Assembly: GCA_020860605.1 (NCBI GenBank)
Contig: JAJBTZ010000035.1
Coordinates: 1-64,000 of the forward strand
Direction: 5' to 3'
DNA length: 64,000 nt
Source of the DNA: Ruminococcus sp.
Lineage (GTDB): Bacteria > Bacillota > Clostridia > Oscillospirales > Ruminococcaceae
The notes beneath the pieces were generated by a model that worked only from the letters and a program-made list of their open reading frames with translations, had not been told where the DNA came from and did not search any database. Shown here piece after piece: positions 5,389 through 29,273 of this stretch. How positions within the stretch are numbered: position 1 is the first letter of the stretch; every line of letters begins with the position of its first letter. Position numbers and translations under genes: made by a program.

Positions 5389-6258
5389 TTATTTGTAGGA
5401 GGTTGGTGCGGAAATGCGACAGCCTACAAACATGCTGTCGGTGACGGGGCCGTTTGCGAAGAAGTCTTCCGAGACAATGAGCTCTTCGAGGGATCTGCAA
5501 TTCATGGACATCATCGTCATAGTCTTGACCTTTGAAGTGTCGAAGAAGCTAATGTCGAGCGACTCGAGGCTTTGGCAGCCATCGAACATGTAGCCCATGT
5601 AAATGACGCTCGAGGTGTCGAAGTTGTCGCCGAAGGTGATCGACTCAAGGGAACGACAATTTCTGAACATCTGCGCCATGCCAGTTACACCTGCGGTGCT
5701 GAAGCAGGTTAAGTCAACCGACTCAAGCGAGGTGTATTCATAAAACATCTGGAAAGTACTGTCACCCGCCAAAACTCCTCCGTCACCCGCTATATAGAGA
5801 TGAGTCCCATCAAGCCAAGCCAGAACACTTTCATCTTCCTCAAGAGAAAAATCCCATGCATCAGACGGTGCCGAGTCCAAGGAGTCTAAGAAAGTGATTG
5901 CTGTTATCTTTGACTTGTCATAGTAATCTTCACTTTGAAGGAGACTGTTGTTTAGGACAGATGTCTGACTCGCAGGTGCAGTGGTGGTAGTTACAGGCGT
6001 GGTTGTAGTCACTGGGGTCGTAGTCGTTGCTGGCGTAGTAGTGGTCGTTGGCGTAGTAGTTGTCGCCGGAGCTGTCACCTTTGTAGTCGCCACCGTAGTC
6101 GTCGCAGCAGTAGTGGTCTGGTAGTCGTCCTGAGTATTCGCCTGCTTGGCGGTGCCTCCGAAGTTGGTGAACCAGAACCAGAGCAGGGCCGCTATCGCTA
6201 TCGCGCCGATGGCAAGGATCAGTATCGTACCAGGAAGTTTGCTTTTCTTGTTTTCCAT
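5389..6258 (-). CDS. Membrane-anchored BspA-like (DUF285) surface protein
   Basis: The protein has 289 residues: a short charged N-terminus, a membrane helix (about residues 10-32), a Thr/Pro-rich linker of TTTTP repeats (about 45-105), then an outside domain. That domain opens with a cap (ITAITFLDSL...DAWDFSLEEDESVLAW...LYIAGDGGVLA) and continues with about four DUF285 repeats of the FDTSxVxxMxxMFxxCxSLE type. These form leucine-rich-repeat-like surface proteins in gut bacteria. A shared cap and repeat pattern links it to the second half of 7211-9076 and to the kinase fusion 9276-11879. It is the last gene of the operon starting at promoter P1. The ribosome binding site GAGG lies eight bases before ATG. 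Its ligand is unknown; adhesion or sensing is inferred. Confidence 0.8.
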   Translation of the reverse strand: MENKKSKLPGTILILAIGAIAIAALLWFWFTNFGGTAKQANTQDDYQTTTAATTTVATTKVTAPATTTTPTTTTTPATTTTPVTTTTPVTTTTAPASQTSVLNNSLLQSEDYYDKSKITAITFLDSLDSAPSDAWDFSLEEDESVLAWLDGTHLYIAGDGGVLAGDSTFQMFYEYTSLESVDLTCFSTAGVTGMAQMFRNCRSLESITFGDNFDTSSVIYMGYMFDGCQSLESLDISFFDTSKVKTMTMMSMNCRSLEELIVSEDFFANGPVTDSMFVGCRISAPTSYK

Positions 6259-6268
6259 TGCTTATACC

Positions 6269-6715
6269 TCACTTCTTAAAAATCTTATTCAGGCGGGATT
6301 TGAAGGACTTGGCTTCCTTTTGTTCCTTTCGGTCTTGCCTGAACTGCATGGTGGTCAGAGCTAACTGGTAATCTTCTGAATTCTCAGGAATTTTCTTGAA
6401 GTCGCGCTTAAGGGCGATGTCTATCAGATCCTCCATGGAGTTATCCTGGGCCTTGCCCACAAGGTTGTACACGATTGCAGCGAAAATATAAGACACAGGA
6501 ATCATTATGAGCGCGACAGCTTTTGGAATCTCCACCACCGTCGTCAACAGGAGTATAAAAGAAATACATACCGTTCCTAAGGCTAAAATGAACCTCAAGC
6601 GACGGAGCCAATACTTTCTCTTCTTTTGCTTCCGCACCAGTTCCTTGCCAAGCCTGGTCGCCTCTTCGGAAAACCAGTACCTGTCATAGTCAAAAGTGTA
6701 TAGCCTTCTTGCCAT
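6269..6715 (-). CDS. Small two-helix membrane protein (paralogue A)
   Basis: The protein has 148 residues from ATG 6715; a GTG three codons upstream (6724) is also possible but sits too close to the GGAAAG site. It has two central membrane helices (about residues 43-62 and 68-92) flanked by basic, charged ends. The N-terminal motif FSEEATRLGKELVRKQKKRK and the C-terminal IDIALKRDFKKIPENSEDYQ recur in the next gene (6744-7190), so the two are tandem duplicates. I do not recognise the family. Sitting between two BspA-like surface protein genes, they may help place or regulate those proteins; this is inference from position only. Confidence 0.72.
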   Translation of the reverse strand: MARRLYTFDYDRYWFSEEATRLGKELVRKQKKRKYWLRRLRFILALGTVCISFILLLTTVVEIPKAVALIMIPVSYIFAAIVYNLVGKAQDNSMEDLIDIALKRDFKKIPENSEDYQLALTTMQFRQDRKEQKEAKSFKSRLNKIFKK

Positions 6716-6743
6716 CAAAATCACTTCTTTCCTTTTTGTCGGC

Positions 6744-7190
6744 TTACTTCTTCGCTTTCCTTTGCTCCTTCAGGACTCGCCTTTGCATTACGGCCTGATA
6801 GGCGTAGCGGTACTCATCGGAATATGGGGAGAGGAGCTGGAGGTCTCTTTCAAGGGCAGCGTCAATTTTGTCCTCTGTCTTTTTGTCGCTTAATTCTGTG
6901 AGTTTGTTGTAGGCGAAGTTGGTCAAAAGCGCTGCAACAATCAATCCTACAACGTCAATCACCATGCCAGTCACCTGTAGTGCAACAGAGTCGAGCCTCA
7001 GAAGGCTGCTGCCGAGCATCATTATTGCGCCACCAATAAAGCATGTACCCAGAATTATTACATAAACCTTATCATGCCCGACCTTCCTCCTCTCCCGACG
7101 ATTCGCCAGATTTTTCGAAAGCCTCGTCGCCTCCTCTGAGAACGGATACTGCTGATAGGTGTAGGTATACGGTATTTTAATTCCTGCCAT
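6744..7190 (-). CDS. Small two-helix membrane protein (paralogue B)
   Basis: The protein has 148 residues with AGAGGA seven bases before ATG. Two membrane helices lie at about residues 43-63 and 70-93. It shares with 6269-6715 the N-terminal YPFSEEATRLSKNLANRRER, the two-helix core and a cytoplasmic-looking tail (KIDAALERDLQLLSPYSDEY). Both ends are strongly charged, so both termini are probably in the cytoplasm. The family is unknown to me. Gene spacing of about 20-30 bases on both sides makes it part of the P1 operon. Confidence 0.72.
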   Translation of the reverse strand: MAGIKIPYTYTYQQYPFSEEATRLSKNLANRRERRKVGHDKVYVIILGTCFIGGAIMMLGSSLLRLDSVALQVTGMVIDVVGLIVAALLTNFAYNKLTELSDKKTEDKIDAALERDLQLLSPYSDEYRYAYQAVMQRRVLKEQRKAKK

Positions 7191-7210
7191 TTTTAATTCC
7201 TCTTTCTAAA

Positions 7211-9076
7211 TTATTTATATTCCGTCGGCTCAGATATGCCAGCATCTTCGAACATATAAGCAGTCTGTGGGTTGTTGATGAAGAAATCTTCAGAAACAAT
7301 CAGCGTTTCAAGTGAATTACAGGAGAGGAACATCTGCCTCATGGTTGTTACATTAGATGTATCAAAAGTACTCAAATCCAGTTCTGTAAGGCTATTGCAC
7401 CACTGGAACATCTTTGACATATCAGTTACATTAGAAGTATCTAAGCAAGCCAAATCGATCGATTCAAGCGACTGATAATTCATGAACATGCTCTCTGCGC
7501 TTGTGTCCGCCAGAACTCCTCCATCCCCTGCTATATAGAGATGAGTCCCGTCAAGCCAAGCAAGCACTGAGCCATCGCCGTTCAGGGAGAAATCCCATGC
7601 TACTGGCGGGGTTGTGTCGAAGGAATCTAAGAACGTGATTTCGGTTATTTCAGACCTTTCGAAATATTCCTCACTCTGGAGGAGGGTGTTGTCGAGGACA
7701 GCGGTGGCATTGGCGGTGGCCTCGGGCTTTTCAAGAGTGGTGCCCTCATACATGCCGGTGGTGTCGGCACCTGCGGTGGTGAAGCTGTCGGAAACTATGA
7801 GTTTCTTAAGACTCGAGCAATTGTAGAACATGTAGGACATGTCAGTGACGCTTGAGGTGTCGAAGCCACTTAAATCGAGGGAGGTAAGAGAGGAGCACTC
7901 GTAAAACATGCTCCGAATAGTTGTAACATTCGAAGTGTCAAAGTCATCCAAATCAAGTGAGGCAAGGGATGTACATTCATAGAACATGTAACTCATGTCG
8001 GTGACATTTGAGGTATCGAACTCGCTCAGATCAAGAGAAGTGAGGGAGGGGCATTTTACAAACATACTTTCCATCGTGGTGATATTCGAGGTGTCGAAGT
8101 CGCTGAGGTCAAGAGTCGTGAGAGATGAGCACTTGCCGAACATGCTCCGCATGTTGGTGACGCTTGAGGTGTCAAAGCTGTCGCCGAAGTCGATTTCAAC
8201 AAGAGCGGTGCAGTCGTAGAACATGCAATACATCGTGGTGACGCTTGAGGTGTCGAAGTCGTCGCCGAATTCAAGCTTCGTCAAAGACGAGCAGGCACGG
8301 AAGGTGTGGCTCATGTCCTCGACATTCGAGGTGTCAAACTCGCTCAGGTCGAGCGACTTGAGAGAAACACAGTCGAAGAACATGCTGTACATGCTGGTGA
8401 CCTCAGAGGTGTCGAAGCCCTCTCCGAAGATAATTAACTCGAGCGACTGGCACTCGTAGAACACGCCACTCATGTCGGTGACGTTTGAAGTATCGAAGCC
8501 CGAGAAATCGACGGAAGTGAGCGAAGTGCAGTTATTGAACAGGCCATACATGGTCGTCACATAAGAGGTGTCGAGCCCGCTCAGGTCGATCGTTTCGAGC
8601 GAAGTGTAGTCAGAGAACAGCTTTGAAGCATCCGGCTGGGCGACGACTCCGCCTTCGCCTGCTATGTAGAGGCGGGTGCCTCTCTGCCAGGCGAGGACGC
8701 TGGCGTCCTGGTTTATGGAGAAGTCCCACGTACTGGCGGGAGCGGTCTCGAGAGAATCGAGGAAAACGATCTCGGTTATATCAGCCTTTTGGAAATAAAC
8801 GTCGCTCTGAAGGACGCTGTTGTCGAGCACCGATAGCTCAGTGATGGTCGGAATCGTTATCACTGGCGACTGAGTGGTGGTAGAATGGGTCGTTGTGGGA
8901 GTGGTGGTGTGAGAAGTGGTGCTCTTCTCATTGGTGCCGGAAAAGTTCAGCCAGATGGCGACAACCATTCCCGCCACGATGAGCCCGATAATAACTATCA
9001 GCACCCTCACAATAATCCTGTTCCTCTTTTCAACCGGCATCCTGTCCCGACTGTTATCATTAAAATTATTATTCAT
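7211..9076 (-). CDS. BspA-like (DUF285) surface protein with two cap-repeat units
   Basis: The protein has 621 residues: a basic N-terminus, one membrane helix (about 22-45), a Thr/Ser-rich linker, then two units. Each unit starts with a cap (VLDNSVLQSDVYFQKADITE and VLDNTLLQSEEYFERSEITE) containing WDFS and LYIAGxGGVxA. About ten DUF285 repeats follow the first cap (FDTSNVTDMSYMFYECSSLT type) and about four the second. The second unit is nearly the same as the outside domain of 5389-6258, so it arose by duplication or fusion. A C-terminal sorting motif is absent; the N-terminal helix is the anchor. It is the first gene of the P1 operon; AGAGGG lies seven bases before ATG. Confidence 0.82.
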   Translation of the reverse strand: MNNNFNDNSRDRMPVEKRNRIIVRVLIVIIGLIVAGMVVAIWLNFSGTNEKSTTSHTTTPTTTHSTTTQSPVITIPTITELSVLDNSVLQSDVYFQKADITEIVFLDSLETAPASTWDFSINQDASVLAWQRGTRLYIAGEGGVVAQPDASKLFSDYTSLETIDLSGLDTSYVTTMYGLFNNCTSLTSVDFSGFDTSNVTDMSGVFYECQSLELIIFGEGFDTSEVTSMYSMFFDCVSLKSLDLSEFDTSNVEDMSHTFRACSSLTKLEFGDDFDTSSVTTMYCMFYDCTALVEIDFGDSFDTSSVTNMRSMFGKCSSLTTLDLSDFDTSNITTMESMFVKCPSLTSLDLSEFDTSNVTDMSYMFYECTSLASLDLDDFDTSNVTTIRSMFYECSSLTSLDLSGFDTSSVTDMSYMFYNCSSLKKLIVSDSFTTAGADTTGMYEGTTLEKPEATANATAVLDNTLLQSEEYFERSEITEITFLDSFDTTPPVAWDFSLNGDGSVLAWLDGTHLYIAGDGGVLADTSAESMFMNYQSLESIDLACLDTSNVTDMSKMFQWCNSLTELDLSTFDTSNVTTMRQMFLSCNSLETLIVSEDFFINNPQTAYMFEDAGISEPTEYK

Positions 9077-9122: not shown

Positions 9123-9165
9123 ATTATACCACTCACCTCCCCTAGTCCCGTAGTTTCGATTTTCC
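9123..9165 (-). promoter_or_regulatory. Promoter P1, conserved CTACGG-type element
   Basis: Read on the minus strand: GAAAATCGAAACTACGG, a 19-base spacer, then TATAAT (9128-9123). It is one of six copies in the window and drives 7211-9076 and the genes behind it. The -35 region has no TTGACA. Confidence 0.7.
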
Positions 9166-9275: not shown

Positions 9276-11879
9276 TTATTCATATTTTGTGCCAGCATAC
9301 ATGGCACCAGTATATATTGCGTTACTTCCGAAGTCATCTGGAAGAATTAATTCTTCCAAGCGATAACAGCTAATGAACATATTACTCATATCAGTAACTT
9401 TTGACGTGTCAAAGTTACTCAAGTCAAGACTGGTAAGCTTCGAGCAGTAACAGAACATGCCATTCATAGAGGTTACCTTAGCAGTGTTAAAATTACTAAG
9501 TTCAATTGCCGTAATTGCGGAACAATTGCCAAACATGAAGCCCATGTTTTCAACCTTTGAGGTGTTGAAGCTTGATACATCAATCGAAGTCAGAGATGAA
9601 CATGAACTAAACATGCAATACATATTTGTGACTTTCGATGTAGCAAAACTACTCAAATCAAGAGAGGTGAGGCTTGAGCACTTGTAGAACATGGAGGACA
9701 TATCGGTGACATTTGCAGTGTTGAAGCTCGAGAGGTCGAGGGAGGTGAGAACCTCACACTTATTGAACATAAATGACATGTTGGTCACATTCGCCGTATT
9801 GAAGCTATTGCTGAACTTAATCGAAGTAAGTTTAAAGCAATCAGAGAACATTGCATACATTGTGGTGACGCTCGAGGTGTCAAAGCCAGAAAGGTCAAGG
9901 GAAGCCAAAGCCTCACATTTATAGAACATGTAGGACATATCGGTAACATTCGATGTGTCAAGATCGCTGCCGAACTTAATTGAAGTAAGTACTAGACAGT
10001 CATCGAACATGGCTATCATGGTAGTGACATTTGAGGTATCAAATCCAGAAATATCGATTGAGGTGAGCTTTTCACACTTGTAAAACATGTAGGACATATC
10101 AGTCACACTTGATGTGTCGAAGTTACTGCCGAACTTAATCGAGGTAAGTGCAAAGCACTCATCAAACATACACTGCATGGTGGTAACGTTTGACGTGTCA
10201 AAGCTGCTCAAATCAAGTGATTTAAGTGAAGTGCAATACTTGAACATAGAATTCATGCCCTCAACATTCGAGGTATCCATTCCATTCAAATTAAGCGAAG
10301 TGAGTGAATTACATTCCAAAAACATGAATCTCATATCAGTAACATTCGACGTGTCGAGGCTTGAAACGTCAAGCGACGTGAGAGAGCTGCAATAGCCAAA
10401 CATGGCGTACATGTTGGTAGTGTCTGATGTGTCGAGGCCACTGAGGTCTACAGACTTCAGTGAGGTGTACTGGTATAGCAGATAGGATGCATCCGAGGCG
10501 GTCTTGACTCCGCCGTTAGCTGCGACGTAGAGATTGTTGTCGTCATCAACCCATGCCAGCACGCTGCCATCTTCATCACGGGAGAAGTCCCAGGCGTCAT
10601 TTGGTGCCGAACTGGTAGAGGTTAAGAAGCTTACTGTGACTATATTCGCCTTGGTGAAGTATTCGTCATAGTAGAGCATGTCCTTGTCCAGGACACGCGA
10701 GCCTGTGGATACTTCCGTGGTCGTGGTCGACGTAGTAGTCGTCGCCTGCTTCTTCGTAGTCGCTGCCGTAGTGGTGGCGGGGGTGGTTCCCCTGTCGTTC
10801 TTGTCGCTATCGCCAGAGATATTCACCCACACGGCGATTACCATGCCGGCGAGGATCAGGCCGATGAGGACTATGAGAACCGGGACGAGCTTTGAGGAGC
10901 CCTGCTTCTTGGGCTTATCGGCGGGCTTCTCGTTATAGAGGGCGCTCGCGAAGGCGTCTACCGACTGGTAGCGGTCTCTTGAGCGGACGGAGAGCGCCTT
11001 CATAATCGCTCTTTCCTGCGAGAAGGTGAGGCCGGCGCCGTATTTGTTTGGCGAGACGATTTCGTCGTCGGTGATGCGGTCAGTAGCACGAGGCGGGGTC
11101 ACGCCGGTCAGGCAGTAGTAGATCGAGGCTGCGAGGGCGTAGACATCCGTCCAGGGGCCCTGGCCACTTCTCTGGTACTGCTCAAGTGGCGCGTAGCCAT
11201 GCTTCAGGGTGATCGTCTGGGTCTCCGAGCCTTCGGAGATGTCCTTGGCGCAGCCGAAGTCGAGGAGCTTTAAGCTCCCGTTCTCGAGCATCAGGTTGTC
11301 GGGGCTGATGTCCCGATGGATAAGCCCGGTTTCGTGCATAGTCGACAAAGCCTTGAACATCGGCTTCATCATCTCAAGGAGCTCCGTTGCTTGAATTCTC
11401 CCGCCTCTTTCAGCCGTCAGAGCCTTGAGGGTTGTCCCCTCGACATACTCCATGACGATATAGGCGGTGTTGTTCTCCTCGAAAAAGTCCTTGACGCCAA
11501 CGATATGAGGCTGGCGGTCGAGCATACCCATGGTTTTGGCCTCTCGGAGGAACTTTTCCTTTCCTCTCTCGAAGCTTTCCTGGCTGCTGTATGTCGGATA
11601 GACATCGCGCGAGAGCCCAGAGGTTCTCGAGGCACAGCCGGCAGGGTAATATTCCTTGATGGCGATCTTGAGGCCAAGCTTGAGGTCGCGGCCGACATAG
11701 GTGATGCCGAATCCGCCTTCGCCCAAAACCCGTCCCACAAGATACCTCTCCTGCAGCACACTTCCCGGCACGAGCTGATGCGGTGCCGGCACATAATTCG
11801 CCGAATTATACCCGCAAGAACAGCTCTCCCCATTCTTCAGAGGCGCCATGCAATATTTACAATAAGTAATTTCCTTCAC
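9276..11879 (-). CDS. Ser/Thr kinase fused to BspA-like (DUF285) surface domain
   Basis: The protein has 867 residues. In order: a zinc ribbon (C7, C10, C20, C22); a Ser/Thr kinase at about 46-325 with GEGGFGITY, AIKEYYP (K75), IHRDISPDN (D190, N195) and DFG (207-209), so all catalytic residues are present; a membrane helix at about 330-352; a Thr-rich linker; and outside a cap domain with about 14 DUF285 repeats (SFDTSNVTTMxxMFxxCxxLTS). The kinase would sit in the cytoplasm and the repeats on the surface, the layout of a receptor kinase. Start is GTG 11879 with GGGAG nine bases upstream; a later start would cut the zinc ribbon. It is the last gene of the P2 operon, 27 bases behind another kinase. 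A surface ligand controlling kinase activity is inferred. Confidence 0.88.
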   Translation of the reverse strand: MKEITYCKYCMAPLKNGESCSCGYNSANYVPAPHQLVPGSVLQERYLVGRVLGEGGFGITYVGRDLKLGLKIAIKEYYPAGCASRTSGLSRDVYPTYSSQESFERGKEKFLREAKTMGMLDRQPHIVGVKDFFEENNTAYIVMEYVEGTTLKALTAERGGRIQATELLEMMKPMFKALSTMHETGLIHRDISPDNLMLENGSLKLLDFGCAKDISEGSETQTITLKHGYAPLEQYQRSGQGPWTDVYALAASIYYCLTGVTPPRATDRITDDEIVSPNKYGAGLTFSQERAIMKALSVRSRDRYQSVDAFASALYNEKPADKPKKQGSSKLVPVLIVLIGLILAGMVIAVWVNISGDSDKNDRGTTPATTTAATTKKQATTTTSTTTTEVSTGSRVLDKDMLYYDEYFTKANIVTVSFLTSTSSAPNDAWDFSRDEDGSVLAWVDDDNNLYVAANGGVKTASDASYLLYQYTSLKSVDLSGLDTSDTTNMYAMFGYCSSLTSLDVSSLDTSNVTDMRFMFLECNSLTSLNLNGMDTSNVEGMNSMFKYCTSLKSLDLSSFDTSNVTTMQCMFDECFALTSIKFGSNFDTSSVTDMSYMFYKCEKLTSIDISGFDTSNVTTMIAMFDDCLVLTSIKFGSDLDTSNVTDMSYMFYKCEALASLDLSGFDTSSVTTMYAMFSDCFKLTSIKFSNSFNTANVTNMSFMFNKCEVLTSLDLSSFNTANVTDMSSMFYKCSSLTSLDLSSFATSKVTNMYCMFSSCSSLTSIDVSSFNTSKVENMGFMFGNCSAITAIELSNFNTAKVTSMNGMFCYCSKLTSLDLSNFDTSKVTDMSNMFISCYRLEELILPDDFGSNAIYTGAMYAGTKYE

Positions 11880-20663: not shown

Positions 20664-21374
20664 TCAGTAGATCCACACAGCAGCTGCTGTGTTGTTGTCG
20701 TTGTCCGAAGGGACGCGCTCGAGGAGCTTCGAGCGCATCCTTCTTATCCATTCGCCCGGTGTCTGGGAGCGCTTGAGGTCTTGGATCATCTCATCCTCAA
20801 CGACATACTCCCAGAACCCATCCGAGCAGAGTAAAAACGCATTCTGGTCGCCCTTTTTTAAGTCGAAGGAACCCGTGTCGATCTTCAGCTCGTCATCCTG
20901 CCCGAGGGCTCTTAGGATTCGGCTGCGGTCTTCGTGGAACCTGATTTCTGAGGGCTTTATCTGGCCGAGATAAACTGCAAGCTGAGAGGCACTGTGGTCG
21001 AGCGTCTGGAAGACGAGCTCGCCGTTTACGAAACGGTAGATTCTCGTGTCGCCGACATAGGCATAGACACACTTGCCACGGGTGTAGGAAATCGTCGCTA
21101 CGGTGCTCTTCATCTTGATAGCTTCAGTCTGGAGCTTCTTGATCTCGTCGTTGGCAAGGGAAATGTCCTTGCAGAGCTCATCGAGATTGGCATCTCCCGA
21201 CCAGCCACTCACGAGGGTTTCAACCGTCTTTTTCGAGGCGATGTCTCCTCCGCCGTGACCTCCCAAGCCATCGGCAACAACGGCTAAGACGCCTCTGTCC
21301 GAAAGAGCAATTCTGACCGAGTCCTCATTGCAGTTTCTTCCGCCGATATTAGAGTAGCTTGCATTTCTTATCAT
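20664..21374 (-). CDS. PP2C-family Ser/Thr phosphatase
   Basis: The protein has 236 residues and is a stand-alone cytoplasmic PP2C domain. Metal-binding and catalytic motifs are present: GRNCNEDS near the N-terminus, VADGLGGHGGGD, GDTRIYRF, LLCSDGFWEYV and DNDNNTAAAV near the end. PP2C enzymes use two metal ions to remove phosphate from Ser/Thr and act as the usual opponents of bacterial Hanks-type kinases. The length is close to that of minimal bacterial PP2C proteins such as Stp/PrpC. It is 22 bases behind the receptor-like phosphatase gene in the same operon. AAGGAG lies eight bases before ATG. Confidence 0.92.
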   Translation of the reverse strand: MIRNASYSNIGGRNCNEDSVRIALSDRGVLAVVADGLGGHGGGDIASKKTVETLVSGWSGDANLDELCKDISLANDEIKKLQTEAIKMKSTVATISYTRGKCVYAYVGDTRIYRFVNGELVFQTLDHSASQLAVYLGQIKPSEIRFHEDRSRILRALGQDDELKIDTGSFDLKKGDQNAFLLCSDGFWEYVVEDEMIQDLKRSQTPGEWIRRMRSKLLERVPSDNDNNTAAAVWIY

Positions 21375-21395: not shown

Positions 21396-22802
21396 CTATA
21401 CCTCAAGGACTACTGCTGTGTAGTTGTCCTGATTGGAATAAGCCTTGGCGGCTACTGCCTTGCCGAGAGCTTCGGCTGTTTCCTCAGCGGTGTTGGTGGT
21501 TGCAATGCAGGAAACGAGCTCTTCATAGCTGAGGGCGTTATAGACACCATCACTCATTAAAATATACCTGTCTCCGCCGTGAATGTCAAGCGGTTCTGCC
21601 GGCATATCAACGTGGGTGAGCTCTCCTCTGCCGAAGAAGCTTGTGAGGCCGGAGCCGTCCTTCGCTCCGAAGGCAGCGTCGAGTGTGCCGGAGCCGTTTG
21701 CAACCTTGAGCTCAAGGTCGTGGCGGTAGATATGCTCACGGTTGAGCTGGATTAAGCTTCCGTCGCGCCAGAGATAGATTCTCGAGTCGCCGATGCTGAA
21801 CCACATGAACTTGCCTTGTCTGATGAGGCCAGCCACCATGGTGGAGCCACACTTGCCGATCTTGGACGAGCCAAGCATCTTGTTGACAGCCTTGTTGGTC
21901 TCGACGACCATCTTCCACATGAGGGCTTCATACTTCTCGCCAGCGTTTGCGACGAAGGTGTTGAGAGCGGTTTCAACCGCCTTCTGGGAGACCTTGTCGC
22001 CGTCCTCAAGACCGCCCATGCCGTCGGCAACTATAGCCAACACACCCATCGAGCTTGCAGCATCTGCGGGAGAAACGGTGAAGCTGTCCTGCTGAGCCGA
22101 ACGAGCGCCCTGATTATGGAGCTTGCCGACCTGCGGTACGGAGAGATATTCCTTAGGATTCTTAGCCACCTCAACCACCTTCGGCGAAGTCATGCTCTTA
22201 GCATAGAGCACCAACAGCACGATAGTTGCAGCTGCGAGGATTACGCAGACGATTATCAGGACGACTGTGCCGGAGTTGACGGAAGAATCTCCACTCTTCT
22301 CGACTTCTTCAGTTGATGTAACGGTGCTGGTTTGTTCGGATACAGAAGTCACCGCTGCCTCGGAAGTTGTAGTCGTCGGAGTCTGTGTTTGCTCTTCGGT
22401 TGTGGTTGTGGGTGGGTCTGGTTCCTCTGTGCCTTCAGCCACAGCTTCCAGATCGCTTGCTATAATGAAGCAATCGCCATCGTAATCTTTAACCGTAATC
22501 GCGTCTGATTTCTCAATCTGATACCATGTAACTGTACCGTTCTCATCTAAAACCTCGCCAATAGCTATGACTTCTCTATTACTGTAGGAAAAGCCAACTA
22601 GATTAAGGCTGTCAGCATTTGACGGAGTCTTTCTGATGTAAGTGATGGTTGTAACCTTCATAGTCGTCGGCTCAATCGCCACTACTTCGTAGTCCTCATC
22701 CGCCCAGACCCCGATGGTCAGGGTGCTGAGCAGGAGGGTTAGGGACAGCGTGAGGAGGAGAAGGCGACTGAGGAGGGACTTCTCTGTAAATAATTTCGCC
22801 AT
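21396..22802 (-). CDS. Receptor-like PP2C phosphatase
   Basis: The protein has 468 residues: a signal sequence (about 1-35), an outside segment of about 100 residues that looks SH3-like (MKVTTITYIRKTPS...VIAIGEVLDENGTVTWYQIE), a Thr/Glu-rich linker, a membrane helix (about 178-202) and a cytoplasmic PP2C domain (about 225-465). PP2C motifs include GARSAQQDSF, VADGMGGLEDGD, GDSRIYLW, LMSDGVYNAL and SNQDNYTAVVLEV. An outside module resembling SH3b wall-binding domains could sense cell-wall material and control dephosphorylation inside; the domain call is tentative. The start codon follows the stop of the FHA gene 22804-23502 by one base, so the two are tightly coupled. Confidence 0.88.
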   Translation of the reverse strand: MAKLFTEKSLLSRLLLLTLSLTLLLSTLTIGVWADEDYEVVAIEPTTMKVTTITYIRKTPSNADSLNLVGFSYSNREVIAIGEVLDENGTVTWYQIEKSDAITVKDYDGDCFIIASDLEAVAEGTEEPDPPTTTTEEQTQTPTTTTSEAAVTSVSEQTSTVTSTEEVEKSGDSSVNSGTVVLIIVCVILAAATIVLLVLYAKSMTSPKVVEVAKNPKEYLSVPQVGKLHNQGARSAQQDSFTVSPADAASSMGVLAIVADGMGGLEDGDKVSQKAVETALNTFVANAGEKYEALMWKMVVETNKAVNKMLGSSKIGKCGSTMVAGLIRQGKFMWFSIGDSRIYLWRDGSLIQLNREHIYRHDLELKVANGSGTLDAAFGAKDGSGLTSFFGRGELTHVDMPAEPLDIHGGDRYILMSDGVYNALSYEELVSCIATTNTAEETAEALGKAVAAKAYSNQDNYTAVVLEV

Positions 22803-22803
22803 A

Positions 22804-23502
22804 TCAGTCTACCTTATCCTCACCCTGCTTCCAGGTGAACTGGTCGCTGCAGAGAGGGACGAAAAGAAGCTTGGTGGTACCAATCTTGATGACGTCGTAA
22901 GCCTTGATCTGCTCTGCATTGAATACTGAATGACCGTTGAGCTTGACGATGTTTCTGCCGTCGGCAGGGCCGAAGAAGAAGGCGTTGTCGTCAGCATCGT
23001 AAGCGATCATAGCGTGCTTCTCACGGGAAATCTGAAGGTCGTTGGAGATGTGGATGTCGCCAATCTCACGACCAATGTAGTTGTAGCCGTTGTGAACTCT
23101 GAAGTCGACGCCTTTTTCTGGGCCATCGATGCAGACGAGCCATCCGCAAACAGGATCGACAGAAGTGCTGTCCATAGAGCTTGCTCCGCCGATACCGCCT
23201 ATCTGAGTAGGCTCCATGTTGTCGGCTCTGTTGCTGCCATCGTGATAAGGATCAACTGCAACGGTTCCGCCCATGTTAGAAGCGTAGTTGCTGGGAGCGG
23301 TGGTAGCGCCGAAGTTGGGGTTGCCGGTGGAGCCAATGCCAGCACCAGGAGCAGTGGTTGCTCCGAAGGAGTTAGCTCCAGGAGCGGTAGTAGCGCCAAA
23401 GGAGGCAGCTCCTCCACCACAATTCGGGCAGGATGCATGAATCGATGCATCATAATAATTTCCACAAGACGGGCACCTAGTTAATTTGTTCTGAACTTCC
23501 AT
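22804..23502 (-). CDS. Zinc ribbon-FHA protein with FGATTAP repeats
   Basis: The protein has 232 residues. An N-terminal zinc ribbon (CPSCGNYYD...CPNCGGG) is followed by a low-complexity linker with three FGATTAP repeats and by TVAVDP and MEPTQIGG, then a C-terminal FHA domain (about 120-215: NYIGREIGDIHI, ISREKHA, LNGHSVF). The Thr residues of the linker look like kinase targets, as in FHA regulators of the GarA/OdhI kind that are phosphorylated on an N-terminal Thr and then bind their own FHA domain. That comparison is inference. It is the first gene of the P2 operon, with AGGAGG eight bases before ATG. Confidence 0.85.
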   Translation of the reverse strand: MEVQNKLTRCPSCGNYYDASIHASCPNCGGGAASFGATTAPGANSFGATTAPGAGIGSTGNPNFGATTAPSNYASNMGGTVAVDPYHDGSNRADNMEPTQIGGIGGASSMDSTSVDPVCGWLVCIDGPEKGVDFRVHNGYNYIGREIGDIHISNDLQISREKHAMIAYDADDNAFFFGPADGRNIVKLNGHSVFNAEQIKAYDVIKIGTTKLLFVPLCSDQFTWKQGEDKVD

Positions 23503-23610: not shown

Positions 23611-23653
23611 ATTATAGCACGGTCGTTTGGGGCGCCGTAGTTTGGATTTTCAC
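23611..23653 (-). promoter_or_regulatory. Promoter P2, conserved CTACGG-type element
   Basis: Read on the minus strand: GAAAATCCAAACTACGG, an 18-base spacer starting CGCCCC, then TATAAT (23616-23611). It lies between the stop at 23669 and the start at 23502 and probably drives the ten genes from 22804-23502 down to the terminator at 9166-9205. Confidence 0.75.
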
Positions 23654-23668: not shown

Positions 23669-24256
23669 TCAGACACACGGCGCCATAGGATCTTCATATG
23701 GACGTGGCTTATCAGTTTTCCCAAAGGGATCCATGCCACCACAGGTGGGGCATTTGTCCCAAGCCTTGCCATCATAGTAGTTGCCACACTTTTCGCATCT
23801 GACCAAGTTGGGATTATGTACGGGTTTACACTCAGCCTCCTGAATCTTCGGGTCGGACATAGCAATCAAAGAAAACTTCGTGTTGCCACCGAAGGAAAGT
23901 TTGTCACCTTCGTACATCCTTGTCGCTTCGGTGATGACTTTTCCGTTGAGCATAACACCATTTGGGCTGACAAAATAGCTCTTGTCATCCTCGTAAAAGG
24001 TGATTGAAATGAGCTTATATCCTTCATCGCGAGTAACTACGCCTTCCTCAGATACATAGGAATCATTATAGTAAACTCTGAATAAATTCACACGTGGGTA
24101 GATGCAGAAGCCTTGGGGACCATTGATCTCATGCAACCAGCCATAGCAGACAGCTCCACACCATTGGCACTTCCTCTGCGATTCCAGATTATAAAAGATT
24201 ATATTGTTCCGTTGACCACAACATCCGCAAATTGCTTGAAACATGGCGGGAGTCAT
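23669..24256 (-). CDS. Degenerate FHA-like protein with zinc fingers at both ends
   Basis: The protein has 195 residues. A four-Cys finger at the N-terminus (CGCCG...CQWCG) is followed by a beta-rich middle with the end of an FHA fold (YFVSPNGVMLNGKVIT, MYEGDKLSFGG) and a C-terminal zinc ribbon RCEKCGNYYDGKAWDKCPTC. The classical FHA residues (GR near the start, SxxH) are not seen, so phosphothreonine binding is doubtful. The C-terminal ribbon closely matches the N-terminal ribbon of the FHA protein 22804-23502, so these proteins share a module in opposite positions. It follows 24275-24880 by 18 bases and likely shares its promoter P3. GAGGTG lies seven bases before ATG. Confidence 0.72.
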   Translation of the reverse strand: MTPAMFQAICGCCGQRNNIIFYNLESQRKCQWCGAVCYGWLHEINGPQGFCIYPRVNLFRVYYNDSYVSEEGVVTRDEGYKLISITFYEDDKSYFVSPNGVMLNGKVITEATRMYEGDKLSFGGNTKFSLIAMSDPKIQEAECKPVHNPNLVRCEKCGNYYDGKAWDKCPTCGGMDPFGKTDKPRPYEDPMAPCV

Positions 24257-24274: not shown

Positions 24275-24880
24275 TCAGTTCTGCACCACTTCAAACGTAT
24301 TATTGCGGTTGGCGAGGAAGAATCTCGAGCCGATGCCTAGGGATACTGGGGCGTTGGGGGTGAGTTGGCGACCGTCGTCGAGGAAGGTGCCGTAGGAGGA
24401 GCCGAGATCTGTAAGGAGAATCGCTCCGCCTTGGCGGTAGACCCTGCAGTGGTTATGGCTGATGCCTGACTCCTGAGAGGAGAATCTCACGCCACAGTTC
24501 GCGTCTCTTCCGAAAAGAAGGCCGTTGCCAAGGCTGTAAACCCTGCCCTTGAGGTTTCCTGAAATGCACATGATCGAAACCGTGCCATAGGGGGCAGGAG
24601 CGGTTCCGCCGTTATTATTGCTGTAGTAGACAGCGCCAGCTGCCTGAGCGGTCTTGTTTCTTGAGATAGGAGCGGTGTCGCGGGTGCTGACCACGATGGC
24701 GATCGTGAAGCCGACAGCAACGAGAACCGCAAGGGTTCCGACACTGAAAATGCCTGCGACTGCACAGCATATGAGGGCGAGCACGCCCATATTATCCCTG
24801 CACCTTGCTCTTCCGATAAAGAACGGAATCAGCCCAAGAAGAGCTCCTACTGCTGCGCCTGCAATTATCATTATTAACAT
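24275..24880 (-). CDS. Membrane-anchored FHA protein
   Basis: The protein has 201 residues: two or three hydrophobic helices in the first 75 residues (about 2-22 and 32-65), then a linker and a C-terminal FHA domain (about 105-200) with LFGRDANCGVRF, GISHNHCRV and LTDLGSSYGTFLDD, all classical pThr-binding positions. It places an FHA reader on the inner face of the membrane, near the transmembrane kinases and phosphatase encoded downstream. GGAGG lies eight bases before ATG. First gene behind promoter P3. Confidence 0.88.
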   Translation of the reverse strand: MLIMIIAGAAVGALLGLIPFFIGRARCRDNMGVLALICCAVAGIFSVGTLAVLVAVGFTIAIVVSTRDTAPISRNKTAQAAGAVYYSNNNGGTAPAPYGTVSIMCISGNLKGRVYSLGNGLLFGRDANCGVRFSSQESGISHNHCRVYRQGGAILLTDLGSSYGTFLDDGRQLTPNAPVSLGIGSRFFLANRNNTFEVVQN

Positions 24881-24915: not shown

Positions 24916-24957
24916 ATTATACTACGGTCGATTTGGGCGCCGTAGTTTGGGTTTTCA
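24916..24957 (-). promoter_or_regulatory. Promoter P3, conserved CTACGG-type element
   Basis: Read on the minus strand: GAAAACCCAAACTACGG, an 18-base spacer, then TATAAT (24921-24916). In this copy the spacer ends in CCGTAG, making a perfect inverted repeat CTACGG-12-CCGTAG across the promoter. Confidence 0.75.
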
Positions 24958-25140: not shown

Positions 25141-25141
25141 T

Positions 25142-25885
25142 TCACTGCTTCTTAACCAACTGGAACTTCTCATATTCCGAGCCGAGCCAGAAGACGTCGC
25201 CGTAGTAGAGCTCTACGGGCTGGTTGGCGGTGAGCTTTTCGCCACGTCTGACGTAGGTGCCATAGGTGGAACCGAGGTCGGTTATGTAGATTCTGCCGTT
25301 GCGGTAGAGGAGCTCGCAGTGGAAGCCACTGATGCCTTTTGAGTCTATCGGATAGACGAGGTCGTTATTCGCGTTCCTGCCGAGGCTTATCTTGTCCGAG
25401 AAGGCGAACCGCTTTCCGTTGAAGAAGCCTGCAATCCCCTGAATTCTGGGCTTGTTGGCGCTCGGCTGAGGCTGGGGCTGAGGTTGCTGGACATACTGCG
25501 GTTGCTGAACATATTGTGGCTGCTGGACAAACTGCTGCTGAGGGGCAGCATAGGGGGTACGGGACGTGGTCCCGTTGACCTTCGCGCCGGTTTCGTCGGT
25601 GACGGTGATGAGGTCAGAGACGAGTGTCGCCACACCCGGCATGAACCTGCCACGGCAGGTCAGCGTTCTGTTGGAATAGACCTCGAGTCCCACATGAATC
25701 TGCTTCGGAACTCCCCAGAAGGAGAATGTGAGATTGTGGACTCCCTCGGTCATCATGACCTGAGCAGTCTGGCCATTCTTCAGGCGAACCGCCTGACTGA
25801 CGCCATCAATCTCGATTCTGATATCGTTCACCGCTCCATACGCTGCGTTTTCCCGCTTTATGGTAACCATAAACTGCTGTGCCAT
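25142..25885 (-). CDS. FHA protein with N-terminal beta domain
   Basis: The protein has 247 residues. An N-terminal domain of about 105 residues is beta-rich (IEIDGVSQAVRLKNGQTAQV, VHNLTFSFWGVPKQI) and resembles small carrier or DUF-type beta domains that I cannot name. A Gln/Pro linker with three QQPQYV repeats (about 120-145) leads to a C-terminal FHA domain (about 155-245) with ISLGRNANNDLVY, GISGFHCEL and ITDLGSTYGTYVRR. It is predicted soluble and cytoplasmic. The FHA domain is very close to those of the protease 19203-20636 and of 25958-26350. AAGGGAG lies about nine bases before ATG. It has its own promoter P5. Confidence 0.88.
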   Translation of the reverse strand: MAQQFMVTIKRENAAYGAVNDIRIEIDGVSQAVRLKNGQTAQVMMTEGVHNLTFSFWGVPKQIHVGLEVYSNRTLTCRGRFMPGVATLVSDLITVTDETGAKVNGTTSRTPYAAPQQQFVQQPQYVQQPQYVQQPQPQPQPSANKPRIQGIAGFFNGKRFAFSDKISLGRNANNDLVYPIDSKGISGFHCELLYRNGRIYITDLGSTYGTYVRRGEKLTANQPVELYYGDVFWLGSEYEKFQLVKKQ

Positions 25886-25956: not shown

Positions 25957-25998
25957 ATTATATCACGCCCGTTTTTGCGGTCGTAGAATGGATTTCCC
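25957..25998 (-). promoter_or_regulatory. Promoter P5, conserved CTACGG-type element
   Basis: Read on the minus strand: GGAAATCCATTCTACGA, an 18-base spacer, TATAAT (25962-25957). The element overlaps the last codons of the FHA gene 25958-26350 and drives 25142-25885. Confidence 0.7.
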
Positions 25999-26350
25999 GA
26001 AAATCGACTATCCGCCATTTCTCATCTTCCGCAACGAGCCAGAACTCGTCTCCATAGGTGAGCTCAAGCTTTTCGCATTGATCAAGTCTGCCTTTCTTTG
26101 TAAATGTTCCGTAGGTGGAGCCCCAATCGCACAAGACAATTTTGCCTTCGTGGTATGTAACCGAACAATGCACGGGACTTATCACTTTCCCTGGTATTAA
26201 TGGGTACACGATTTCGTTGAAGTTCTTATCTCTTCCGAATCTCAATACGCTAGATATTTTAAAACACTTTCCTTCGAAATATCCGCTTACCCCGAGTATC
26301 GCTGGTACTGGGCCATTAGGTGGCATTGGCACGCCTGGCTTCTGGGTCAT
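25958..26350 (-). CDS. Stand-alone FHA protein
   Basis: The protein has 130 residues from ATG 26350, chosen because AAAGGAG lies eight bases upstream; the GTG at 26359 overlaps that site. It is almost only an FHA domain (about 25-110) with LRFGRDKNFNEIV, ISPVHCSV and CDWGSTYGTFTKKG. The SxxH pair is present, so pThr binding is likely. A short Pro-rich N-terminus and a C-terminal tail with STTAKTG could carry phosphorylation sites. Small FHA proteins of this type often act as adaptors for Hanks-type kinases. It has its own promoter P6 and its 3' end contains promoter P5 of the next gene. Confidence 0.85.
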   Translation of the reverse strand: MTQKPGVPMPPNGPVPAILGVSGYFEGKCFKISSVLRFGRDKNFNEIVYPLIPGKVISPVHCSVTYHEGKIVLCDWGSTYGTFTKKGRLDQCEKLELTYGDEFWLVAEDEKWRIVDFREIHSTTAKTGVI

Positions 26351-26376
26351 GGTGACCACTCCTTTCGTTATTTTTC

Positions 26377-26418
26377 ATTATATCATCCAAAGTTTCGCTC
26401 CCGTAGAATTGATTTCCG
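26377..26418 (-). promoter_or_regulatory. Promoter P6, conserved CTACGG-type element
   Basis: Read on the minus strand: GGAAATCAATTCTACGG, an 18-base spacer, TATAAT (26382-26377). It lies directly behind the terminator of the upstream kinase/CvpA operon. Confidence 0.72.
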
Positions 26419-26422
26419 CAAT

Positions 26423-26450
26423 AAAAAAAGGGACGGCGTTGGCCGTCCCT
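26423..26450 (-). terminator. Terminator of kinase/CvpA-like operon
   Basis: Read on the minus strand: stem AGGGACGGC / GCCGTCCCT, four-base loop, then a run of seven T. It lies 11 bases after the stop of 26461-27741. Confidence 0.9.
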
Positions 26451-26460
26451 GCGGGGGAAG

Positions 26461-27741
26461 TTATATGTTGAAAAGGGCTGCTAGCTGGTAGAAGTATCGG
26501 AACACGGAGGTGTTCTGGATGGTGTCGGTGATGGTCTTGTCGAAGGTGCTGCCGAAGAGGAGGATTACTATTATCACTATGCCGACGGCGATGGCAGCGT
26601 ACAGGAGCCAGACGGCTCCGCTTGCGATGCCTTCGATGGTGCCGAAGATGAGATCCAAGGCATAGGGAATGTGGACGTTCTCGAGAACCTTGAAAAGCTT
26701 CATGATGAGGCTCATGAGGAACCTGAGTATCAAAGCGAAGATCAGGAAGAGAACAATCTTCAGGCAGTAGACGATGAGGGGCTCGAAGAGCCTGGACTCG
26801 ACAATCTCTCCCACCTTGTCGCCAGTCAGGTAAGCCCAGATTATCGACTGAATCGAATCGTCGAGGGCTTCCTCGCCGACAATCAGCTCTATGCAGTTCA
26901 GGATGTTTTCGGATTTCAAGAAGTCGTCTCCGATGATGAAGCCCATGACGTCAGTCTCAACATATTCGCTGATCTCTGAGGCCATCTTCATGGTAGTGTA
27001 GGCGTTTTCTGAGGTGTTGAGGAGGCTGACAAGGGTGTCGCAGCAGTTGTCAAAGCTCCCATATTTCGGAAGGCAATTCTTAAGCCAGCTCTCAGCGAGG
27101 GCATAGGCGAAATCCTTGCGGTAGTCGTAATTGTCGCCGACAAGGGAGCTCTCCTCGTCAAGATACATGCTGGCGCAAATCCGATTGTTCTCGTTGTTTT
27201 CGATGCCGGTGAGCTGGATGTAGGCGGTGGCGTTCGAGACCTTGCGGGAGCTCGTGAGCTCGTCGCTCATATAGTCGATGATAATGTCGAGGGCGTCGTC
27301 ACGGGAGACGGTCTCAGTGATAGCGTCGACAATATGCTCAGCAGGACTTGAGTTCTCAATCGACTTGTCGACAGTTTCGGTGATGGAATTCTTGATGAGA
27401 CCATCGTAGATGAGTGGCGTCAGCGTCTGCGAGGCAAAGATGCTCAGGGCGAAAACAGCTGCCAGAAGAACCGTCGAGACGGTTCCATAGAGGAAGCCTC
27501 GTTTGACTCCGACGAAAAGACCGATTAAAATCGCAGCGACTGCAAGAAGATCGACTATGAGGACTGGGATAGCCTGCTCACTATCGAGAACGACAGCAGC
27601 GACAATTCCGGCAATCGACAGAAGAACCGCAAGGATTATCAGGACTACCGAACGGGAATGGTTGTAGGGCGTCGGTGCTCCGCATTGAGCACAGCTTTTT
27701 ACTCCTCGACGGAGTCTGTATCCGCATTTTTCGCAGTACAT
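26461..27741 (-). CDS. CvpA-like membrane protein with N-terminal zinc ribbon
   Basis: The protein has 426 residues. A zinc ribbon (CEKCGYRL...CAQCGAPT) opens it, then helices at about 30-50 and 55-75 and a CvpA-like pattern (VDLLAVAAILIGLFVGVKRG and a following helix). A long middle part of about 170 residues lies outside the predicted helices, and three helices close the protein (about 325-345, 365-390, 393-412), with the CvpA-like segment DLIFGTIEGIASGAVWLL. CvpA proteins are inner-membrane proteins tied to colicin V production and envelope integrity; the biochemical role is unclear. The start lies inside the 3' end of the kinase gene (43-base overlap, AGGAAG before ATG), so the two are translationally coupled. 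Confidence 0.75.
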   Translation of the reverse strand: MYCEKCGYRLRRGVKSCAQCGAPTPYNHSRSVVLIILAVLLSIAGIVAAVVLDSEQAIPVLIVDLLAVAAILIGLFVGVKRGFLYGTVSTVLLAAVFALSIFASQTLTPLIYDGLIKNSITETVDKSIENSSPAEHIVDAITETVSRDDALDIIIDYMSDELTSSRKVSNATAYIQLTGIENNENNRICASMYLDEESSLVGDNYDYRKDFAYALAESWLKNCLPKYGSFDNCCDTLVSLLNTSENAYTTMKMASEISEYVETDVMGFIIGDDFLKSENILNCIELIVGEEALDDSIQSIIWAYLTGDKVGEIVESRLFEPLIVYCLKIVLFLIFALILRFLMSLIMKLFKVLENVHIPYALDLIFGTIEGIASGAVWLLYAAIAVGIVIIVILLFGSTFDKTITDTIQNTSVFRYFYQLAALFNI

Positions 27742-29273
27742 ACATCTTCCTCGCTTTCTTCGGTAGTTTCGGTGGATTCTTCGGCGGTTTCTTCGGCATT
27801 TTCTGCCGTTTCGGTGGATTCAGGCTCGGAACGTTCGGCCGAATTGACCTCTTCGGTGGATTCGGGCTCTGCTTCAGTTTCTTCAGCAGGCTCAGTCTCT
27901 TCGACTTTAGCCTCATCTAAGATAGTATCAGAGAGCTCCGACTCCTCGATGGTTTCTTCGGGGATATCGGCCTTCTCGACCTTTTCCTCGAAGGCTGGGA
28001 TGTCCTCAGGCTTGATTTCGGCCTCTTCGGTCTGCTTCTTCTTGCCGAAGAGCTTGAGCTTCGGCTTCTTGTCGTTTGCAGTCTTCGCGACCCATTCGTT
28101 AACCGGCTTCCCGCACCAACGGCAGTAGGCAGCGGTGTCGCCGATCTGCTTGTGGCAGGAGGTGCAGTAGCGCTTGATGGTGAGGCCTTCGTAGAGGCTC
28201 ATGTGGAACTCGGTCATCGACTGAAATCTGTCTGTCGGCTTTACTCCAAGGGCGAGCAGGATTGCCTTCTCCTGCTGTTCAGAAATGTCGGCGTGGAGCT
28301 TTCTCGGCGGAATCAGGTTGTCCTCGGAGATTCGGTCGACAGCTCTGTCGGGGAGCTGCCCGGTGAGGCAGTAGTAGATGGAAGCTGCGAATGCATAGAC
28401 ATCCGTCCAGGGGCCTTGACCTTTGCGCTGGTACTGCTCGAGGGGAGCGTAGCCATGTTTAAGAGTGATGGTCTGGGTCTCCGAATTCTCGGAAACATCT
28501 CTGGCGCAGCCGAAGTCGATTAGGCGAAGCTTTCCGTTTTCGATCATCAGGTTGTCGGGGCTGATGTCTCTATGAATAAGGCCGGCATCGTGGACAGTCT
28601 GAAGAGCCCCAAACATCGGCTCGAGCATGGCGAAAAGCTCCTTTGAAGGGATTCTCCCTCCGCGCTGCTCGGCATAGCTCTTAAGGGTCGTGCCGTCGAT
28701 ATACTCCATGACGATATAGGCGGAGTTGTTCTCCTCGAAATAGTCCATGACAGAGACGATTTCGTTCTGCTTGGCGAGGCGAGCCATGACTCGAGCCTCG
28801 TTGAGGAAGCGCTCCTTGCCCTTCTCGAAGCTGTCCTGAGCGCTCGTGAAGCTCATGACATTCAGGGACATGGCCGACTGCCTTGAGGAGAGGCCAACGG
28901 GGTAATACTCCTTGATCGCGACCCTCATGTCAAGCGTCATATCGCAGCCGATATATGTAATTCCGAAGCCGCCTTCGCCGAGGACTCTCCCGACAAGGTA
29001 CTTGCCCTTGAGGACGGTTCCAAGCGGGAGCTGATGCAAGGCGGATTTATACTCGGCGAACTTCTTTTTCTGGGCGCATTTATCGCAAATTTTGATACCG
29101 TAGCCTTCCGAAACGGTCTTCATGCAATAGGGGCACCTCTGAACCTGCTTCGGCATCCGCTTGCTCTTCGGAACCGCTTCCGGCTCGCTATTCTGGGGAG
29201 GCAAGTCATTATGAATCGCCCCTTCCCTCTCAGTCACAGCATCGGATTTTATAATCTTTTTATCTTCAGTCAT
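27699..29273 (-). CDS. Soluble Ser/Thr kinase with two zinc ribbons
   Basis: The protein has 524 residues from ATG 29273, which has GGAGGG six bases upstream; a longer open frame to 29396 would run through the promoter. In order: a disordered N-terminus; a zinc ribbon CPYC...CDKC (about 47-66); a kinase domain at about 92-370 (GEGGFGITYIG, AIKEYYP with K121, IHRDISPDN, DFGCARD); a second zinc ribbon YCTSCHKQI...CRWCGKP; and a highly acidic, Glu/Thr-rich tail of about 110 residues. No membrane helix is seen, so this kinase is cytoplasmic, unlike the other three active ones. The acidic Thr-rich tail looks like a place for autophosphorylation and FHA binding, which is inference. Co-expressed with the CvpA-like gene. 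Confidence 0.88.
   Translation of the reverse strand: MTEDKKIIKSDAVTEREGAIHNDLPPQNSEPEAVPKSKRMPKQVQRCPYCMKTVSEGYGIKICDKCAQKKKFAEYKSALHQLPLGTVLKGKYLVGRVLGEGGFGITYIGCDMTLDMRVAIKEYYPVGLSSRQSAMSLNVMSFTSAQDSFEKGKERFLNEARVMARLAKQNEIVSVMDYFEENNSAYIVMEYIDGTTLKSYAEQRGGRIPSKELFAMLEPMFGALQTVHDAGLIHRDISPDNLMIENGKLRLIDFGCARDVSENSETQTITLKHGYAPLEQYQRKGQGPWTDVYAFAASIYYCLTGQLPDRAVDRISEDNLIPPRKLHADISEQQEKAILLALGVKPTDRFQSMTEFHMSLYEGLTIKRYCTSCHKQIGDTAAYCRWCGKPVNEWVAKTANDKKPKLKLFGKKKQTEEAEIKPEDIPAFEEKVEKADIPEETIEESELSDTILDEAKVEETEPAEETEAEPESTEEVNSAERSEPESTETAENAEETAEESTETTEESEEDVCTAKNADTDSVEE

Follow-up and report, generated by a model that had tools for sequence, protein, structure and literature searches.

A linked kinase, PP2C phosphatase and FHA gene cassette with exchangeable receptor ectodomains in a Ruminococcus species and relatives

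The type VI threonine phosphorylation pathway consists of the PpkA kinase, the PppA phosphatase and the Fha reader. TerY-P-like sets combine a zinc-ribbon kinase with a PP2C and a vWA protein. In plants, leucine-rich repeat (LRR) receptor-like kinases are accompanied by KAPP, a protein composed of FHA and PP2C. In one paper, LRR, PASTA or solute-binding domains are described on single kinases of bacteria, and the clustering of FHA genes with kinases and phosphatases in Mycobacterium tuberculosis is cited (PMC1262709); the theme of kinases with sensor domains and linked FHA genes is therefore old. Other papers note the diversity of bacterial kinase ectodomains in general (PMC12077195), describe the KKP module (PP2C-kinase-kinase, with cold-shock-fused and FHA-fused kinases) in prophages (PMC11341870) and mention kinase/PP2C/vWA linkage for one class of conflict systems (PMC7159879). 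Here, these systems are compared with an island of 20 genes in the gut bacterium Ruminococcus sp., located at positions 5389-29273 of the 64,000-nucleotide stretch of DNA that was analysed (the window). The island is a real and conserved variant of bacterial Ser/Thr phosphosignalling, and this variant is probably undescribed. Two points are new, namely a conserved core with exchangeable receptors and an unusual shared promoter.

All island genes lie on the minus strand and are transcribed from 29273 to 5389 (Table 1). The original prediction, made from the sequence letters, had listed four motif-complete kinases and a pseudokinase, two PP2C phosphatases, a membrane protease with an FHA tail, five other FHA or FHA-like proteins, a zinc-ribbon CvpA-like protein, a duplicated lipoprotein and BspA-like surface proteins. 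Pfam matches and translations bear out every class of this inventory, to which an 80-aa membrane open reading frame (ORF) at 15203-15445 and a repeated promoter element can be added. Curated cut-offs were exceeded for Pkinase (PF00069) in five proteins, for PP2C_2 (PF13672, cut-off 24 bits) in two and for FHA (PF00498, cut-off 20.7 bits) in four, including the protease. The Gly-loop, beta-3 Lys, HRD..N and DFG motifs of Hanks-type Ser/Thr kinases are complete in four of the five Pkinase proteins; the fifth, the pseudokinase, reads HEDINPGA and DFS and has no Gly-loop. The three FHA proteins 1-3 exceed the cut-off and the AlphaFold model of the zinc-ribbon protein znFHA5 predicts an FHA fold, whereas its neighbour znFHA4 is degenerate; the CvpA-like protein is matched by the CvpA and zinc-ribbon models of Pfam, below their cut-offs. 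The island holds 5/7 of the Pkinase, 4/6 of the FHA and 2/3 of the PP2C_2 matches of the 2.28-Mb genome (the PP2C count refers to this genome itself), which argues against chance. The remaining two FHA matches share one FHA-FHA-ABC-transporter-like protein (L001:1-2136), located beside a GMP-synthase-like gene, both named from their sequences.

Linkage was followed in relatives, where an FHA match was found in 41 of 119 family genomes and a Pkinase match in 117. Since the FHA matches of relatives include long ORFs of 1355-1714 aa, which by their length look like EssC, linkage of FHA and kinase alone is unspecific, and znFHA5 was chosen as the cassette marker. Among 20 stretches from 17 family genomes (L008-L027), picked by eye from FHA and kinase lists, blastp detected a znFHA5 relative in 11, a PP2C beside it in all 11 and a kinase within the stretch in nine; no znFHA5 was found by blastp in L010, L012, L014, L020, L021, L022, L023, L025 and L026. 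Scanning of the genome collection with a znFHA5 alignment gave 565 stretches matching the peptide pattern. A relative is encoded by 534 of them, from which the 80 best (L028-L107) were taken further. These loci contain the marker (80), a kinase (69), PP2C (75), two PP2Cs (63), an FHA ORF (79) and trypsin-FHA as a single ORF (56), as detected with locus-member profiles trained partly on the same loci; since this set is the one closest to the island in znFHA5, distant relatives may differ. In 42 loci a flank is at most 7 kb long. The other 38, with both flanks above 7 kb, all hold a kinase, a PP2C and an FHA protein, and 35 hold two PP2Cs, 29 a single trypsin-FHA ORF and 26 the combination of kinase, two PP2Cs and trypsin-FHA. 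The genes are linked and co-directional, with one opposite-strand member seen, so the scattering in relatives that the original prediction named as a reason to abandon it did not appear. A comparison with the same-genus genome G044, aimed at an empty site, gave one flank gene and not the other.

Marker carriers include Flavonifractor, Oscillibacter valericigenes, Bacillus, Priestia abyssalis, Heliobacterium chlorum and metagenome-assembled genomes (MAGs) of Desulfovibrio and Thiohalocapsa; the distribution is wide but patchy. The protein with a trypsin-like domain, a transmembrane (TM) helix and FHA was recognized by Pfam in two Bacillus loci (L088, L100), Priestia abyssalis DSM 25875 (L094), Heliobacterium (L103) and Thiohalocapsa (L101), and also in L008 and L011. 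The core that is widely conserved comprises a zinc-ribbon kinase, two PP2Cs, an FHA protein of the trypsin or vWA type and a zinc-ribbon FHA protein. The BspA proteins, the lipoprotein and the small membrane proteins are accessories found in particular lineages. The variation of these peripheral genes between relatives is what could be expected from an accumulation of unrelated surface and signalling genes, by chance or of low meaning. This explanation is extremely unlikely, as the core stays linked across hundreds of megabases of divergence and the genes share the private promoter described below. Other fusions and neighbours were also observed: the L070 cassette joins FHA to an intramembrane protease of the PrsW type (L070:7408-8739), which is a second protease-FHA fusion, and L008 has a GH5 cellulase fused to LRR repeats (L008:11485-13224) between znFHA5 and a kinase with an LRR ectodomain. 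Distant znFHA5 matches occur in 19 plasmid records; on one of them, a Leisingera plasmid (L108:11638-19607), kinase, FHA, PP2C, hypothetical and two dynamin-family genes stand in a row.

The loci hold 155 kinases, of which 130 have CxxC before the Gly-loop and 120 a TM helix after the kinase domain. An ectodomain of at least 100 aa was found in 97 of them, giving 99 together with the two of the window. With an identical cut-off for kinase domains and ectodomains (E 1e-8, 80 aa), the 99 kinase domains formed a single cluster, in which 99.7% of the pairs are linked at a median identity of 47%, and the ectodomains of these kinases fell into 32 clusters with 10% of pairs linked. Their families include LRR_4, LRR_5, DUF285, PASTA, Sel1, TPR, YARHG, SBP_bac_8, DUF4352 and others. 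Judged from these sequences, the conserved core carries exchangeable receptors; ectodomain diversity inside one linked cassette is new with respect to the diversity already noted for bacterial kinases in general.

In the window, the larger of the two ectodomains (that of the kinase 11907-15176) may be carbohydrate-binding-module-like, which is said with modest confidence on the basis of a structure model and fold matches at approximately 13440-13805 and 13062-13421; no sequence relative of this ectodomain was found in the PDB. The other ectodomain kinase (9276-11879) was the only one of three DUF285 proteins scanned with TIGR02167 and scored far above its cut-off of 30 bits. DUF285/PARCEL is strong in this protein and in 7211-9076, and present in 5389-6258. 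Kinase A has zinc-ribbon CxxC motifs on both sides of the kinase domain and no transmembrane ectodomain.

The combination of kinase, TM helix, ectodomain and a PP2C in one locus is shared with PrkC/PrpC (PknB/Stp), from which the island differs by a zinc ribbon before the kinase, the lack of PASTA, and the presence of FHA readers and a protease. It could be argued that the island is a duplicated and elaborated system of this kind for envelope homeostasis, whose kinases sense wall fragments and not foreign polymers. PASTA does occur in the ectodomains of two L018 kinases, in Priestia L094 and in 3 of 31 ectodomain representatives, and the PknB/PASTA model is the best NCBIfam match of the four complete kinases, the repeat model aside. 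However, no window kinase has a Pfam PASTA match, the four kinases scanned reach 112.6-173.9 bits against the 450 of the PASTA kinase model NF033483, and the sole PP2C scanned (21396-22802) reaches 108.8 bits against the 230 of Stp1/IreP (NF033484). Contig C46 of the genome carries another strong kinase with a PP2C next to it, and this pair would itself fit PrkC/PrpC. Envelope homeostasis is an unlikely account of the island.

The second new feature is the promoter. A repeat search revealed a 50-nt repeat ahead of several island genes, and the element GAAAATCCAAACTACGG-N18-TATAAT precedes six transcription units. It has no TTGACA-like -35 box and a conserved block takes its place. With up to three mismatches allowed to the 41-nt pattern, the island contains five sites, each with no mismatch or a single one, and the rest of the genome contains two, with three mismatches each; the reversed pattern, used as a control, has no sites in the genome. 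A profile built from the five sites, which themselves score 31.9-36.5, detects the sixth, where the spacer is one base longer. Its scores do not exceed 8.5 in 23 further upstream regions from the window or 10.3 before 14 within-unit island genes. A terminator-like hairpin (26429-26450) is located between the CvpA-like gene and the FHA1 promoter site. In near relatives (four genes each in L028, L030, L031 and L032, with L029 left out), the element is in place in 14 of 16 regions; 0 of 200 shuffles reach the score in 13 of these, and one shuffle does for kinase A of L030. By the profile, it was not found before znFHA5 in L028 and L030. CTACGG-N18-TATAAT was not found in the more distant loci L008-L027, nor in its exact form in L028-L030 and L033-L107; the looser CTACG-N17-21-TATAAT has one match each in L028-L030 and a single match in L050. 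The promoter is therefore a feature of close relatives only. Shared and private, it would bind the island into one regulon. A protein with HTH_31 is linked in L024 and has homologues in L008 and L013. Another repeat, GC-rich and about 120-190 nt long, has four copies in the island and its surroundings (3560-3760, 24990-25140, 29411-29600 and 32228-32397); its CTCTCAGTC...CTCCCCC...AGAGGG blocks occur in either orientation, and it resembles a dispersed palindromic repeat without coding function.

In composition, the island resembles the type VI pathway, in which a membrane kinase with an outside sensor, a PP2C and an FHA reader are encoded together; it differs by having several kinases with different ectodomains, the protease-TM-FHA protein, the zinc-ribbon FHA protein and private promoters, and no secretion machine was found next to it. 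In view of this likeness, the island might regulate a surface machine (type VII secretion, type VI-like threonine phosphorylation or a Tad pilus), acting as PpkA/PppA/Fha do. In relatives, the L018 cassette (L018:2-7367) lies beside DUF5702, WG-repeat and DUF6382-FHA proteins, a neighbourhood that we take to be reminiscent of Tad pilus loci, and MotA/ExbB-like genes stand beside the cassette in the Desulfovibrio MAG (L104:8373-9957) and the Thiohalocapsa MAG (L101:938-1780). Nevertheless, type VII secretion was rejected as a parent system for this genome, since it gave 0 WXG100 matches, with a positive control in B. subtilis, and no EssC-like long FHA ORF. The genes of the window that flank the island and were scanned with Pfam have metabolic or surface functions, with no type VI secretion genes among them (neither type VI secretion nor Tad genes were searched genome-wide), and a role in such a machine seems quite unlikely.

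Two likenesses lead to conflict systems. With KKP the island shares clustered kinases and a PP2C, and with TerY-P-like sets a zinc-ribbon kinase with PP2C and, in relatives L009, L069, L101 and L104, vWA-TM-FHA versions, which take the position or company of trypsin-TM-FHA. The island could then be a conflict or anti-phage system based on kinase/phosphatase pairs (KKP, PD-T4-6 or the kinase-PP2C-vWA set), and its kinases do match the PADLOC PD-T4-6 and mad6 models, generic matches to models without curated cut-offs; the kinase/PP2C/vWA linkage mentioned in PMC7159879 points the same way. Yet, with the NCBIfam model of mad6, the MADS defence kinase (NF047741), they reach 88-113 bits against 460. 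The FHA- and cold-shock-fused kinases that define KKP in the passages of PMC11341870 are not seen, as Pfam gives neither an FHA nor a cold-shock match for any kinase of the window; the island kinases carry zinc ribbons and ectodomains instead, and no znFHA5 relative was found in 50,697 phage records. Nor was a vWA match, part of the TerY-P-like definition, found in the 20 proteins scanned; the window has trypsin-TM-FHA in its place, and polymorphic receptors. Large variable ectodomains also point outward, and an anti-phage role is very unlikely.

Two further comparisons concern architecture. Membrane proteases of the HtrA/DegS type share with 19203-20636 an outside trypsin-like domain on a TM anchor, but this protein has a cytosolic FHA tail and scores far below the HtrA/DegS cut-offs. 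The likeness to plant LRR kinases is an analogy and not membership: in the island, the kinase is N-terminal (the reverse order), the KAPP-like functions are in separate genes, and zinc ribbons and a protease are added.

The reading that we favour, at a probability of roughly 60%, is a dedicated trans-membrane Ser/Thr-phosphorylation signalling locus. It is proposed that receptor kinases, whose ectodomains are interchangeable, act as sensors at the cell surface; those of the window would probably sense polymers, one looking carbohydrate-binding and the other made of PARCEL/BspA repeats. Inside the cell, the kinases would phosphorylate threonine on themselves or on partners, FHA proteins (zinc-ribbon, soluble and membrane-anchored) would assemble on the phosphothreonine, and the two PP2Cs would erase this mark. 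Trypsin-TM-FHA would be recruited to phosphorylated receptors by its cytosolic FHA tail, and its outside protease could then act on ectodomains or stalks in the vicinity; several island proteins have Thr-rich stalks, which are possible targets. The units would be switched on together by the one promoter type private to the island. The protease step is the boldest part of this mechanism, and we infer it from the fusion of an outside protease to an inside FHA. This fusion is shared by organisms as far apart as Bacillus and Thiohalocapsa, and the catalytic Ser motif is intact in 66/66 and the His motif in 62/66 trypsin-FHA ORFs. An extended version is possible, although doubtful: the loci would form a widespread and undescribed receptor-kinase class of bacteria, convergent in plan with plant LRR kinases and KAPP, in which a single inner core works with changing outer receptors, with FHA-steered inside-out proteolysis or shedding of the receptors and, in this lineage, a regulon controlled via the private promoter by some activator or sigma factor. 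The original prediction spoke of a surface-sensing phosphorelay network. The surface-facing Ser/Thr-phosphorylation network agrees with linkage in relatives and with the shared promoter, but phosphorelay is the wrong word, as no His-Asp phosphotransfer component was seen; kinase, PP2C and FHA stand for writer-eraser-reader signalling.

Several observations weigh against a dedicated signalling locus of this form. Of the 20 FHA-chosen stretches, 11 have znFHA5, nine of these with a blastp-detectable kinase, and in the phylum sample the marker is present in just 17 of 398 genomes, this one included. In the only same-genus genome no FHA match was found, which makes the system dispensable. The protease is not obligatory, as 9 of the 38 full-flank loci have no trypsin-FHA ORF by a profile built in this study, and vWA-TM-FHA is found in L009:9161-10621, L069:8369-9976, L101:12321-13985 and L104:10621-12627. 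The model of the 11907-15176 ectodomain, obtained from five sequences, is weak (mean predicted local distance difference test, pLDDT, 62; predicted template modelling score, pTM, 0.35), and a shared fold would be no proof of sugar binding. Gene content, motifs, linkage, the conserved core with variable ectodomains and the shared promoter are read from the DNA itself; the topology in the living cell, the ligand, phosphorylation, binding by the FHA domains, the target and cleavage of the protease, and the output are inferred.

The remaining features are collected in Table 1. The CvpA-like gene overlaps kinase A by 43 nt, and a similar overlap is found in 5/5 nearest relatives.

Table 1. Genes and promoter elements of the island, in the order of transcription (window positions)
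Feature	Positions	Strand	Evidence
Promoter element before kinase A	29325..29365	-	0 mismatches
Kinase A, 524 aa	27699..29273	-	Pkinase 119.6 bits (on longer ORF); motif-complete; ATG at 29273
Zinc-ribbon, CvpA-like membrane protein	26461..27741	-	sub-threshold Colicin_V 18.3 vs 29.3 and Zn_Ribbon_1 21.2 vs 25 bits
Promoter element before FHA1	26377..26417	-	1 mismatch
FHA protein 1	25958..26359	-	FHA 46.7 bits
Promoter element before FHA2	25957..25997	-	1 mismatch
FHA protein 2	25142..25885	-	FHA 62 bits
Promoter element before membrane FHA3	24916..24956	-	1 mismatch
FHA protein 3, membrane-anchored	24275..24880	-	FHA 45.8 bits; hydrophobic N-terminus in translation
znFHA4, zinc-ribbon degenerate FHA-like	23669..24256	-	weak match to znFHA5 profile, 8e-06; no GR/SxxH
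Promoter element before znFHA5	23611..23651	-	0 mismatches
znFHA5, zinc-ribbon FHA protein, cassette marker	22804..23502	-	sub-threshold Yop-YscD_cpl in Pfam; AlphaFold model with FHA fold
PP2C phosphatase 1, membrane, extracytoplasmic N-terminal part and Thr-rich stretch	21396..22802	-	PP2C_2 50.1 bits
PP2C phosphatase 2, cytosolic	20664..21374	-	PP2C_2 43.9 bits
Signal peptide - trypsin-like protease - TM - FHA	19203..20636	-	Trypsin_2 68.9 and FHA 55.8 bits
Lipoprotein, internally duplicated domain, Thr-rich linkers	17747..19201	-	translation; homologues in L030, L031
Kinase with C-terminal TM helices	16438..17697	-	Pkinase 111.6 bits
Pseudokinase	15442..16374	-	Pkinase 60.2 bits; broken motifs
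80-aa two-TM protein	15203..15445	-	start overlaps pseudokinase stop; no Pfam family
Receptor kinase: zinc ribbon - kinase - TM - ~645-aa beta-rich ectodomain	11907..15176	-	Pkinase 108.5 bits
Receptor kinase: zinc ribbon - kinase - TM - PARCEL/DUF285 (BspA-like) ectodomain	9276..11879	-	Pkinase 121.6, DUF285 318.6, TIGR02167 392 bits
Promoter element before 7211-9076 BspA gene, spacer +1 base	9123..9164	-	profile score 31.8
TM - BspA/DUF285 surface protein without kinase	7211..9076	-	DUF285 299.8 bits
Small two-TM protein	6744..7190	-	translation; no Pfam family
Small two-TM protein, paralogue-like to neighbour 6744-7190	6269..6724	-	translation; no Pfam family
TM - Thr-rich stalk - BspA/DUF285 surface protein	5389..6258	-	DUF285 58.1 bits

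The original prediction stated that no described system of such composition was known, and open-licence PMC papers, in which no description of the cassette was found, agree with this. Kinase, PP2C and FHA parts are known; within that literature, it is the linked cross-phylum cassette with protease-TM-FHA and exchangeable ectodomains that appears undescribed. In Bacillus and Priestia, the cassette is a five-gene unit of PP2C, trypsin-FHA, PP2C, kinase and zinc-ribbon FHA, and in these non-model but culturable species the ligand, the phosphosites, FHA binding and the protease target are directly testable. The cassette would show that bacteria build modular receptor kinases much as plants do.

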